NCBI GenBank assembly: GCA_002840645.1
Contig: PHBO01000019.1
Location: forward strand, 1-39,228
Direction of reading: 5' to 3'
Origin: Candidatus Cloacimonetes bacterium HGW-Cloacimonetes-3
GTDB lineage: Bacteria; Cloacimonadota; Cloacimonadia; Cloacimonadales; Cloacimonadaceae
DNA length: 39,228 nt
Shown here: positions 1-27,112 of the stretch, one piece after another
How the letters are laid out: every line of letters begins with the position of its first letter
Position numbering within the stretch: the first letter of the stretch is position 1
The notes under the pieces: model-generated
The model's database searches: none
What the model was told of the DNA's origin: nothing
The model's input: the letters and a program-made list of their open reading frames with translations, nothing else
Position numbers and translations under genes: made by a program

Positions 1-348
1 CTCTTGACTACTTCTTTTGTTTGCATTTCTATATCTCCTATCAGTGTTGAGGTGTCAACTTATTTAGGATCCCACATCTCCCTTGCTATTTTCCCTAATA
101 CAAGTATATTAATTCCCTAATGATTCCCTAACGCCGTTAAGGAATCGTTAGGGAATTGTTAGGGCAATACTAAGGATAACAGCAAGGCTGCGATAAAAGT
201 TACTTGACATGACTCTATCTGCAATTTGGGGTGTGAGTTGTAGTGGCTATTAAACGATCCGCTTTTATGCTACTCCTCTGTAGAAAAAAGCCTTGACTAA
301 AACCTTAGCCTACAAATAGTAAAAAGTGGAGTTCAACTCTGGGGGATA
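1..348. other. Left intergenic region upstream of the thermonuclease gene
   Basis: No convincing coding frame is visible here. The stretch holds the phased TTCCCTAA / TTAGGGAA array at 91-167, described separately. It also holds two -35-like boxes: TTGACA at 204-209, which lacks a good -10 partner, and TTGACT at 293-298, which has a possible TAGTAA -10 at 317-322. A GGGGG ribosome-binding site at 341-345 precedes the ATG at 349. The A+T-rich character fits a promoter region. Whatever gene lies to the left of the window is not visible. Confidence 0.6.
91..167. repeat. Inverted array of 11-bp units (TTCCCTAA / TTAGGGAA)
   Basis: TTCCCTAA occurs at 91-98, 113-120 and 124-131. The reverse-complement form follows at 137-144 (TTAAGGAA, one change), 148-155 (TTAGGGAA) and 159-167 (TTAGGGCAA, imperfect). 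Inside the array the units repeat every 11 bases, about one helical turn. The segment 111-133 is an inverted repeat of 135-157, with 21 of 23 positions matching around a single central base at 134. It could be an operator for a multimeric DNA-binding protein, a cruciform or transcript hairpin, or the end of a mobile element. The sequence does not decide among these. Confidence 0.8.
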
Positions 349-11016: not shown

Positions 11017-11056
11017 ATCTTCCCTGCCAGCCACAGATAATTCGACCGTGAACTGA

Positions 11057-11092
11057 CCATGATATCACCAAGATTTATCATGGTGAGATCAT
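11057..11092. other. Two mutually exclusive hairpins in a convergent intergenic gap
   Basis: CCATGATA (11057-11064) pairs perfectly with TATCATGG (11076-11083). ATGATATCACCA (11059-11070) pairs with TGGTGAGATCAT (11081-11092) at 11 of 12 positions. The two stems share bases and cannot form together. No T-run follows on either strand, so a classical terminator is not clear. Confidence 0.55.
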
Positions 11093-11164
11093 AGCCGGAT
11101 ATCTTTCGGTTCACTTTCGGAAAGCAGGTGCGGGGCAGGTTACAAACAGAGAATAGCCTTAACA

Positions 11165-16635: not shown

Positions 16636-16807
16636 ATAGTTTTTACAGCGGATGATGGCGCAAGTTTCGGCAATATAAGTTCAAGTAAGGGTGTTTCCTA
16701 AACCACTCACCAAACTTACATCGCGAATCCACTGTATTGTAAGCACTACCTGCAAGTTGTGTCCAGAGCAGCGAGATTGTTTCTGCCACAAGTTCTTTCG
16801 TATTCTC

Positions 16808-16891
16808 CCGGCAGAAATTACAGTAGCAATACGCATGAGATACGCATCGCATCCGTAATTCATGCGTAATGCATAAGTAATTCAAGCAAGG
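16808..16891. repeat. Dispersed long palindrome, copy 1 (diverged)
   Basis: This 84-base element is related to the one at 25658-25742. The shared core includes CGTAATTCATGCGTAATGC and GCATAAGTAATTC followed by AGCAAGG. Here the left arm (CCGGCAGAAATTACAG side) has decayed, so the hairpin is imperfect, and the element lies in opposite orientation relative to copy 2. It ends 11 bases from the stop codon of the minus-strand gene at 16903. Confidence 0.85.
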
Positions 16892-16902
16892 AAGAAGCTG
16901 GC

Positions 16903-17454
16903 TTAGAAAGAGAAATCTATTTCGAACTCATTATCGGGATGGAAGTTCTGAAACTCCCAGTGATAGGCATTATCATCGTATTTTTGTGGGGAAAAGGGAA
17001 GCCTGTTTATAGTGATGCCCTCTGCCACTTCAAGGCGATAGTTAGCATAAACGAGGGCATTGCCCCAGGTATTGGCGGTTGTTATTATGTACTTGGCAGT
17101 GTTGCCTTTAAGCTCCTGACGGTAGGCGATGCGAACCGTGCAGAAATGCCTTGCGGGCATGGTGAGCATAAATCCGAAGCCACCGGTGCGGACGCTGGAA
17201 AGCATGCAGCTGGCAAGGCTGTCCTCCACCACTTCCAGAGCGAGGATTTCCGGGTGCAGGGAAAGGCTGTCTTCCGGAATGGGGAAATATATGGGGCTGC
17301 TAACCAAGGAATCTGCATAATTGGCAAAATAAAACAAGCCGTCCATCTCCCAGCTGCCTTTGTTAAGGGTAAACTGTAGCTCCTCTGCCTCGAAACTGAG
17401 CGCAAAAACACCCGTGCAGAAAACTGCTAAAAGCAAGAGGAAAAGTGGCTTCAC
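16903..17454 (-). CDS. Small secreted protein of unknown function
   Basis: I do not recognise this 183-residue protein. It starts with a clear signal peptide (MKPLFLLLLAVFCTGVFA, cleavage near residue 18). The mature part is rich in aromatic and acidic residues and alternates hydrophobic positions, suggesting a beta-sandwich. No C-terminal sorting domain, lipobox cysteine or catalytic motif is seen. Its ATG overlaps the stop of the upstream sorting-domain protein by 4 bases, so the two are probably made together and may form a secreted pair. The final residues EIDFSF end in alternating aromatics, as in many outer-membrane or periplasmic proteins, but at this length a full barrel is unlikely. 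Downstream lies palindrome copy 1. Confidence 0.7.
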   Translation of the reverse strand: MKPLFLLLLAVFCTGVFALSFEAEELQFTLNKGSWEMDGLFYFANYADSLVSSPIYFPIPEDSLSLHPEILALEVVEDSLASCMLSSVRTGGFGFMLTMPARHFCTVRIAYRQELKGNTAKYIITTANTWGNALVYANYRLEVAEGITINRLPFSPQKYDDNAYHWEFQNFHPDNEFEIDFSF

Positions 17455-23934: not shown

Positions 23935-24011
<77 letters not shown>

Positions 24012-24035
24012 TCTCCTTTAACATACCACATTTGT

Positions 24036-24112
24036 GGGTGATTAGCTCAGCTGGTTAGAGCGCTACGTTCACATCGTAGAGGTCACTGGTTCGAATCCAG
24101 TATCACCCACCA
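24036..24112 (+). tRNA. tRNA-Val(CAC): tRNA-Val (anticodon CAC)
   Basis: This is a second complete cloverleaf, 24 bases after the first and almost identical to it. The anticodon loop is TTCACAT, giving CAC at 24070-24072, which reads GUG codons. Differences from its neighbour are one base in the D loop (C for T) and the wobble base (C for G). CCA is encoded. It is probably cotranscribed with the first tRNA and ends before the terminator at 24131-24157. Confidence 0.97.
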
Positions 24113-24125
24113 TTTTTTTGCCCAT

Positions 24126-24165
24126 AAAAAAGAACCCGGGTTTATAGCCCGGGTTCTGCTTTATA
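24126..24165. terminator. Bidirectional intrinsic terminator
   Basis: AGAACCCGGG (24131-24140) and CCCGGGTTCT (24148-24157) form a perfect 10-bp stem with a 7-base loop TTTATAG. On the minus strand it is followed by TTTTT; on the plus strand a T-rich stretch follows. It can end both the tRNA transcript and the convergent FadL-family gene, whose stop is at 24181. Confidence 0.85.
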
Positions 24166-25506: not shown

Positions 25507-25753
25507 AGTGTTAACTCCTTGTTGTTTAAGTCTTATTCACAATATTTATGAACAGCGCAATGTATCTGAACATATGTAAAGAGGTCAAGATATATTTTTG
25601 CAGATTTAAACATGCAGGCAAGAGTATTGCCATCTGTTCCGCTCTTTTCTGTATCTTCCTTGCCGGAATTACTTATGCATTACGCATGAATTACGGATGA
25701 GATGCGTATTTCATGCGTAATGCATAAGTAATTCCAGCAAGGAGGGTAGAAGA
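25507..25753. other. Intergenic region between the FadL-family gene and mnmE
   Basis: This 247-base gap carries the 5' leader and promoter region of the FadL-family gene (25507-25620, A+T-rich, with a possible minus-strand TTGACC box near 25595) and the long palindrome at 25658-25742 next to the 3' end of mnmE. No coding frame is credible. The palindrome is the only candidate terminator for the nine-gene operon. Confidence 0.55.
25658..25742. repeat. Dispersed long palindrome, copy 2 (intact 33-bp stem)
   Basis: Arms of 33 bases (25658-25690 and 25710-25742) are complementary except at one position (C at 25664). They enclose a 19-base loop that itself contains a TACG/CGTA pairing. Arms begin CCTTGCCGGAATTAC and end GTAATTCCAGCAAGG. 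The element lies 11 bases from the mnmE stop codon. A diverged copy sits at 16808-16891. Possible roles: a REP/MITE-like element, an mRNA 3'-end stabiliser, or a terminator. Confidence 0.92.
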
Positions 25754-27112
25754 TTATTTGCCGATACAGAAGTTGCTGAAAATGCTTTCCAGAAGGTCAT
25801 CCGGGGTTATTACACCCAGAATTTCCTCCAAAGCATGGCTGGCTGAGATGAGTTCGAAAGCGATAAACTCGAATCCCGCTTCTGTATCCAGGGCATAAAG
25901 TGCTTGTTGCAGGGCTTTGTTACACTTCTCCAATGCTGCCAGATGCCGGGTATTGGTTATTAGGGGTTGGCTAAGAATATCTTCAGAAAGCATCAGGTGT
26001 TGCAGGATGGCAGCCGATAACTGCTCCAGACCATCAGGTAGGGTGGCACTGCAATATATGGCATGTTCAATCCGCACATAGGAGGGAGCTAACAAATCTG
26101 CTTTGCTGTATGCAGTAATGGTTTTGGGTAACAGGTCGGAAGGGATGCCTGCCTGCATAGAATCCATATTGCCGGTGGCATCCAAAAGTAAGATGATAAG
26201 ATCGGAGCTTTGCATCAGACTATAGCTCTTTGCTATCCCGGCAGATTCAATTTCATCGGTGGAACTGCGCAAACCCGCAGTATCATAGATTACTATTGGA
26301 AAGCCAGCAAGCGAGATGCTCTCCTCCAAATAGTCTCTGGTGGTGCCGGGATGAGGAGTAACAATGGCGCGGTTGTGCTGCAGGAAAGCATTGAACAGTG
26401 AGGATTTACCTGCATTAGGCGCACCTGCCAGACATATTTTCACCCCTTCGCGGATGTGTTTTCCCTGTTCTCCTCTGGCAGCAAGATCGCAGGTGTCCTG
26501 TATCAAGCCGAGAAGGCGGGTTTTGAGATCCACAAGGTCTATCTGGGGAAGGTCCTGATCGGCAAAGTCGATGGCAAGTTCACAGCGTAATCTGGCTTCG
26601 CTGATGCGTTCCAAGATGCCTTGCAAATGGTGGCTAAGAATCCCATGAAGCTGCATCAGAGCGGCACTCTCGGCTTTAGATGCCTGTGCATGAATGAGGT
26701 CGTTCACGGCTTCTGCCTGGCTGAGATCAAGCTTGCCATTCAGATATGCCCGTAGCGTAAACTCTCCCGGATTGGCAAGACGACAATGCTGTAACAGGTT
26801 TTGCAGGATACGGTTAGCGAGATTGGGGTTACCATGGCAGGATATCTCCACACTGTCCTCACCGGTGTAGCTGTGGGGGCTGCGGAAAACGCTGAGCAGC
26901 ACATCATCGACAGGCTGTCCGGTTTGGGACAGGAAAACACCATGAATTAAACGATGAGAAGGGGATTTAGTAAGCTTGTGGGCGGGCTTAAAATGCCTTG
27001 CTACAATATCTATTGCAGCTTTTCCGCTAATTCTGATAACGGTGACGGCTGCATAGCCAACGGGGGTAATTTGAGCACAAATCGGATCGTTTTGGTGCGC
27101 GGGAGATATCAA
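25754..27112 (-). CDS. mnmE: tRNA modification GTPase MnmE (TrmE)
   Basis: This 452-residue enzyme, with MnmG, installs the carboxymethylaminomethyl-type group on wobble uridine 34 of several tRNAs. The N-terminal folate-binding domain (ICAQITPVGYAAVTVIRISG) and GEFTLRAYLNGKLDLSQAEAV are typical. The inserted G domain shows GAPNAGKSSLFNAF (G1), GTTRD (G2) and DTAG (G3). G4 reads SKAD instead of NKxD. The protein ends in the diagnostic FCIGK. Start is a TTG at 27112 overlapping the dxs stop (TTGA); no ATG lies nearby and the N-terminus matches the family. It is the last gene of the nine-gene operon. mnmG is not in the window. Confidence 0.96.
   Translation of the reverse strand: MISPAHQNDPICAQITPVGYAAVTVIRISGKAAIDIVARHFKPAHKLTKSPSHRLIHGVFLSQTGQPVDDVLLSVFRSPHSYTGEDSVEISCHGNPNLANRILQNLLQHCRLANPGEFTLRAYLNGKLDLSQAEAVNDLIHAQASKAESAALMQLHGILSHHLQGILERISEARLRCELAIDFADQDLPQIDLVDLKTRLLGLIQDTCDLAARGEQGKHIREGVKICLAGAPNAGKSSLFNAFLQHNRAIVTPHPGTTRDYLEESISLAGFPIVIYDTAGLRSSTDEIESAGIAKSYSLMQSSDLIILLLDATGNMDSMQAGIPSDLLPKTITAYSKADLLAPSYVRIEHAIYCSATLPDGLEQLSAAILQHLMLSEDILSQPLITNTRHLAALEKCNKALQQALYALDTEAGFEFIAFELISASHALEEILGVITPDDLLESIFSNFCIGK

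Follow-up and report, generated by a model that had tools for sequence, protein, structure and literature searches.

We analyzed a window of 39,228 nucleotides, positions 1 to 39,228 of one contig in a 2.68-Mb genome of 32 contigs (G000). Two long palindromes of 85 bp each, reported in a preliminary description, lie at 16807-16891 on the minus strand (given there as 16808-16891) and at 25658-25742 on the plus strand. The second is almost perfect, with CCTTGC/GCAAGG ends and arms that are 89% complementary. The first is weaker, with arms 75% complementary over 32 bp and 67% end to end, and its strand is set by the asymmetric center GGATGNGATGCG. When folded as single-stranded DNA with DNA parameters and compared to dinucleotide shuffles, 25652-25748 gave z = -14.6 and 16802-16897 gave z = -5.0. 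As described, the two are related in inverted orientation (86% over 91 nt); they also match in direct orientation (78%) because both are near-palindromes. Each also ends, as had been noted, 11 bases from the stop codon of a minus-strand gene: exactly 11 bases (16892-16902 and 25743-25753) separate GCAAGG from TTA, the reverse-strand TAA, of the genes at 16903 and 25754. Within 16892-16902, AAGAAGC matches a conserved flank of the element. The gene at 25754 is mnmE (NCBIfam TIGR00450), while the 183-aa ORF at 16903 had no Pfam or NCBIfam match and is unclassified.

Two more palindromes in the window had been overlooked. One, at 81-187, is 107 bp long and has CCTTGC/GCAAGG ends around a different core made of TTCCCTAACGA-like modules (type B). 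The other, at 11040-11100, is weaker, with a score of 11.6 (our survey threshold was 13) and a top lag of 11 at 0.58. Positions 1-76 hold the left end of an insertion sequence on the minus strand, 4 bp outside the CCTTGC of the 81-187 palindrome. Its body lies beyond the contig end, and we assigned it to the IS3 family from the copy in G007, a complete 2,246,820-bp genome from the genus of G000. An adjacent pair of tRNA-Val genes (GAC and CAC, 91% alike) occupies 23935-24112, and after them, at 24124-24164, comes a hairpin of the ordinary terminator-like kind.

The 85-bp element, which we call type A, is present in more than 40 copies in G000. A DNA search of the whole genome with the 25658-25742 element gave at least 80 matches at no fewer than 40 places, each place matching on both strands; 40 places is a lower bound, as further copies were found by an end-pattern search and in survey samples. 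Element ends are usually CCTTGC...GCAAGG or close variants, common to types with differing modules, and the oriented type-A consensus is flanked symmetrically by CTTCTT and AAGAAG. The pattern CCTTGC(67-97)GCAAGG occurs at 32 places in G000, some of which are coding coincidences, and the reversed control pattern occurs at none. Palindromic matches to the pattern measured 85, 96, 107, and 108 bp, and some had cores without obvious similarity to type A. There were 51 pattern places in G018 and 42 in G008, and several relatives were near background. The 122 elements collected across the genomes examined were 85 bp (77), 86 bp (32), 107 bp (9), or other lengths (4), and their length and register fell near 11n-3 across unrelated module types. 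In the draft genome G005, some palindromes (L290, L291, L295, and L300) are interrupted by runs of N, consistent with assembly trouble at hairpins.

The type-A query had no match in plasmids or phages, and we rejected a phage or plasmid origin. Nor did it match any of 5,426 E. coli genomes, where type A was the single query tried. A 17-mer from type C matched 25 viral contigs, all within one recurring sequence that lacks the palindrome, the G008 pattern had no viral match, and one scan of a genome contig collection with a type-A 17-mer returned four unrelated contigs. Judged by titles and the starts of abstracts, searches of the open-access PMC literature listed no report of such elements for this group.

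The arms consist of 11-bp modules arranged head to tail and mirrored about a dyad, with module sequences that differ by type and species. In the 25658-25742 element, where the top lag is 11, the sequence and a lag-11 analysis of its type place the left-arm modules TTACTTATGCA, TTACGCATGAA, and TTACGGATGAG at 25669-25701 on the plus strand, mirrored by the right arm. Modules are TTACTTATGCA/TTACGCATGAA/TTACGGATG in type A, GCCATAATAAT/TCCCTAACGAT in type B, CTTCTTAATCC/CCCCTTAATCA in type C, TACCTTAGTAT/AACCTTAGTAT in the G008 type, and ACCCGAATGCC in the G004 type. Unlike most types, type C modules (CTTAATCAAGC) were seen in three genera (G000/G004, G008, and G016; L039, L047, L049, L111, L347, and G004:C33:562-668). 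For 11 type sequences, within-arm identity was 0.58 at lag 11, 0.47 at lag 22, and 0.21-0.32 at other lags, compared to 0.27 (sd 0.016) for shuffled arms, and none of 2000 shuffles reached 0.58 at lag 11. The top lag was 11 in ten of the 11 types, the exception being type D; these sequences were hand-picked from matches and include some that are not independent of one another (A, E, and the G006 type look related), making the survey described below the fairer test. GC maxima fell at 3.5-8.8 of 11 across types, and their phase relative to the dyad was only loosely shared.

We surveyed 20 stretches of 20 kb each from G000 and from G007 with a palindrome score threshold of 13. Thirty of 42 long palindromes in G000 and 14 of 27 in G007 had a top lag of 11. 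When positions within arms were shuffled with pairing kept, the combined 44 of 69 compared to a mean of 4.7 (sd 2.1) and a maximum of 11 in 200 shuffles. Among other members of the family, the counts in two that served as controls were three of seven in 82 kb of G009 and none of two in 99 kb of G012; smaller samples gave 10 of 13 in G016 (including four short contigs picked for the IS ends there), two of two in both G001 and G008, and two of four in G018. In controls outside the family, none of four long palindromes in 147 kb of the order-mates G030 and G031, and one of five in 100 kb of E. coli, had a top lag of 11. Extrapolation suggests about 200 or more modular palindromes in the G000 genome; as none of the 40 listed type-A places falls inside the 20 G000 sample stretches that we chose, the sample densities under-count type A.

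All surveyed modular palindromes were intergenic (30 of 30 in G000 and 14 of 14 in G007), although 90% and 81% of the respective samples are coding. Together with the copy number of type A, this supports the suggestion in the preliminary description of a dispersed intergenic palindrome family resembling REP/BIME elements. With genes called by our own simple ORF scorer, G000 had 13 convergent, 77 tandem, and 24 divergent spacers of at least 100 bp, which contained eight, 16, and six palindromes, respectively; in G007, four palindromes fell in 23 convergent, seven in 68 tandem, and three in 22 divergent spacers. Convergent spacers are thus enriched in G000, and the enrichment is weaker in G007. 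These palindromes form a class, dispersed between genes in many genomes of one family and built of mirrored, one-turn modules of 11 bp.

The IS end at the start of the window has eight identical copies in G000, all at contig ends, and one variant copy. Each of the nine has a palindrome with a top lag of 11 at a distance of 8-37 bp (seven of type B, one of type G, and one of type A), and by eye most are exactly 4 bp from CCTTGC or CCCTGC. A place picked at random would have a modular palindrome within 40 bp with a probability of about 0.012. In G016, which belongs to another genus, all six IS ends have a modular palindrome next to them; again by eye, five are 7 bp outside a GC(T/A)AAGG end and one is about 44 bp away. 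The single match in G007 and one weak match in G001 also adjoin modular palindromes; weaker matches in order-mates (L329, L330, L332, and L335) showed no association, the lag-11 palindrome in L329 being about 500 bp off. In the G007 copy, the encoded transposase belongs to the IS3 family (NF033516, 239.6 bits, cut-off 160). In the G000 and G016 cases it is the left IS end that faces the palindrome (L315-L323, L331-L343, and window 1-76), and at most copies the assembly is interrupted by the IS. At L032 1608-1630 and L256 5839-5850, degraded left ends (TGTGGGAT) sit exactly 4 bp outside type-B palindromes with no full IS, resembling insertion scars.

We compared copies within genomes. G008, from another genus, yielded 32 copies with 41-bp stems and 97% mean column identity; these were collected by exact CCTTGC/GCAAGG ends, which leaves out copies with mutated ends. 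Stem pairs 9, 12, 17, and 21 vary, and each time both sides have changed. One-sided changes number only three, all in copy L116, and the 4-nt loop varies freely. Over 16 distinct rows there were 12 cells with both sides changed compared to 3.1 expected, and covariation was 0.060 compared to 0.017 in shuffles (none of 500 reached the observed value), with slid controls near zero. In the 43 near-identical copies from G018, the arms are consistently asymmetric and variation is mostly one-sided, so matched arms are not a general rule. Also in the G018 copies, A, G, and T all occur at element column 56 and again at column 67, exactly 11 bp away, and the columns next to them are mostly fixed.

We also compared orthologous sites between species. 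Seven of 22 type-A places in G005 had an orthologous G000 stretch among the sequences compared; this count leaves out L283/L245, which matched through a repeated gene, and L060/L022, where the match was to the element only. At three of the seven (L284/L029, L289/L023, and L282/L002), type A is present in both species, whose DNA there is about 72%-76% identical. G000 has another type at the same place in one case (L291/L252) and further along the same spacer in another (L287/L242); at the remaining two (L288/L253 and L300/L257), G000 has no palindrome above threshold. At L284/L029 a start codon follows closely after the element end GCAAGGAAGAAGG, which is Shine-Dalgarno-like and conserved in the two species. 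Of the sites in the window, the spacer after ackA contains other 11-bp-module palindromes in G004 and G007, but in G001 and G002 no palindrome there passes the threshold; in G005, type F occupies the fadL-mnmE spacer. At three further G000 sites, ten stretches from relatives showed a clear lag-11 palindrome in L310, a weak one in L304, and none elsewhere. With several orthologous spacers lacking any palindrome, single sites are dispensable. Mosaic palindromes in L259 (17306) and L248 (17415) have type E modules in one arm and type A modules in the other, in register.

For the three shared type-A pairs, held-out log-likelihood differences at species-diagnostic bases were +20.0, +24.6, and +20.7 for the G000 copies and -3.4, +1.8, and -7.0 for the G005 copies, with five of the six copies leaning to their own species. 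This lean fits homogenization within genomes, though independent insertions at the same spot may also have occurred.

In several respects these palindromes resemble known systems. Like the REP/BIME sequences of Enterobacteria and Pseudomonas, they are dispersed, intergenic, imperfect, and high-copy, form species-specific families, and are targets of IS3-family elements; IS1397, ISKpn1, and ISPsy8 are IS3-family elements that target REPs (PMC1525189). REPs lie mainly between tandem and convergent genes, a further likeness, are 20-40 bp long, and carry an unpaired GTAG or CGTC tag (PMC3733652). The modular palindromes differ in their length (85, 86, 96, or 107 bp) and in having arms of 11-bp modules, and no GTAG or CGTC tag was seen in the type-A consensus, the other types being judged by eye. 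They also differ from GTAG REPs, which go with a RAYT (Y1) transposase in the genome, in that G018, the richest genome, has no Y1 match. A second likeness is to strong gyrase sites. A study of E. coli gyrase describes a symmetric 130-bp motif with arms of 10.75-bp periodic GC (PMC6379681), and both share dyad symmetry, a length of about 100-130 bp, and helically periodic arms. Unlike that motif, which is degenerate and periodic only in GC, the modular palindromes repeat actual sequence every 11 bp, with a GC phase that varies by type. They are similar to ERIC and MITE elements in being about 100 bp, palindromic, intergenic, and multi-copy. However, type A differs from ERIC in having no match in E. 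coli genomes, the palindromes differ from MITEs in lacking a target-site duplication, and they differ from both in keeping their architecture while the core differs between types.

We tentatively favor a reading in which the palindromes are BIME-like sites that act at the level of DNA, with modules offering one face of the helix to a putative wrapping or topology protein. We prefer it because of the dyad, the one-turn modules, the locked length and register, the lack of an RNA signature, the preference for convergent spacers, and the IS targeting across types. Equal modules, recurring at every turn to either side of the dyad, would present the same helix face repeatedly to a symmetric DNA-wrapping or topology protein, for which gyrase or an HU-like protein are candidates. 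Such sites would sit in gene spacers and be densest where genes converge; copying of one arm from the other, by way of a hairpin or cruciform, would keep the arms matched, copies would be homogenized within a genome, and an IS3-family transposon may use the sites, or whatever occupies them, as landing pads. Several observations weigh against this reading. No protein is linked to the sites by gene content, the GC phase is loosely shared, and a period of exactly 11 departs from the 10.5-10.75 of B-DNA and the gyrase motif and also suits A-form RNA. The near-identical G008 and G018 copies suggest dispersal in the recent past, as would also be expected of a purely selfish element; variation in G018 is mostly one-sided, and several orthologous spacers are empty. 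A broader proposal, which we put forward still more cautiously, is that this element class may conserve architecture and not sequence: modules would turn over between species and even at a single site, whereas arm-to-arm copying would preserve the end motif, the register, the dyad, and the quantum of length, and a protein and IS3 transposases would read them by shape or phase and not by their bases.

The main rival, in our judgment somewhat less likely, holds that these are selfish miniature elements, whose hairpin DNA would be dispersed in trans by a putative enzyme reading the CCTTGC ends, with one arm templating the other. It could be the same thing viewed from its origin. Such dispersal would explain why nearly the same sequence recurs in G008 and in G018 at loci whose flanks are unrelated, and also the lineage-specific copy number and the paired arm changes beside a freely varying loop. 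However, we found no target-site duplication, sought as a perfect 2-12 bp repeat, at either end of 51 elements (sets of 13, 12, and 26), and no split or gene-bearing version of type A among the matches listed. The absence of the type-A query from plasmids, phages, and E. coli and the persistence of type A at three orthologous sites also count against it. As to an enzyme, matches to Y1/RAYT (PF01797) numbered six in G000, three in G007, and zero in G018, the genome richest in pattern places, and we rejected a Y1/RAYT partner for G018.

It is improbable that the palindromes have no function, with slippage making the modules, quasi-palindrome template switching keeping them symmetric, and drift letting them accumulate in spacers. 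Template switching would yield exactly the paired changes observed in G008, and the mosaics whose type E and type A arms keep a common register (as at L259 17306) are in keeping with it. Set against this are the length and register locked near 11n-3, the ends shared across unrelated module types, the enrichment in convergent spacers, and the control genomes, which had few long palindromes and almost none that were modular.

We also regard as quite improbable that the elements act in RNA, as hairpins at mRNA ends that serve as terminators, stabilizers, or processing sites; a role at mRNA 3' ends was one of the original suggestions. The elements fold strongly (with DNA parameters), many lie downstream of genes, and 11 bp is one turn of A-form RNA. 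However, divergent spacers are not depleted, and ten of 41 classifiable G000 elements lie between two gene starts. On the transcribed strand, G-U and A-C mismatches numbered 31 and 29 in 24 tandem elements and 21 and 28 in 23 tandem elements from the survey. An RNA hairpin under selection should favor G-U, so the lack of an excess counts against one. Unlike intrinsic terminators, the palindromes have no T-run after the stem, their 3' flanks being purine-rich (AAGAAG/AGGA), and the only Rfam matches across the window were two tRNAs. Thus, a role at mRNA 3' ends is not borne out.

The other original suggestion, that elements insert with an 11-base preference beside stop codons, fits both window copies and can be dismissed for G000, where, with genes again called by our ORF scorer, among 43 elements with recognizable ends (24 tandem, ten divergent, seven convergent, and two at edges) the 39 distances to an adjacent stop ranged from 3 to 353, with three within 9-13 and only the window's own two equal to 11. 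The 11-base spacing is a coincidence, and the scatter of distances across the genome removes the spacing claim and leaves the element family standing.

Sequence is what normally defines a bacterial palindrome family, yet here many unrelated sequences obey one plan with a quantum of one helical turn. A single build plan across sequences points to a physical constraint, and the long-standing question of the role of REP/BIME-like DNA becomes directly testable by phase shifts. In the paired arm changes, nature would have kept a record of DNA correction templated by hairpins, and the fixed distance of the IS3 end across several module types provides a ready assay for shape-directed target choice.
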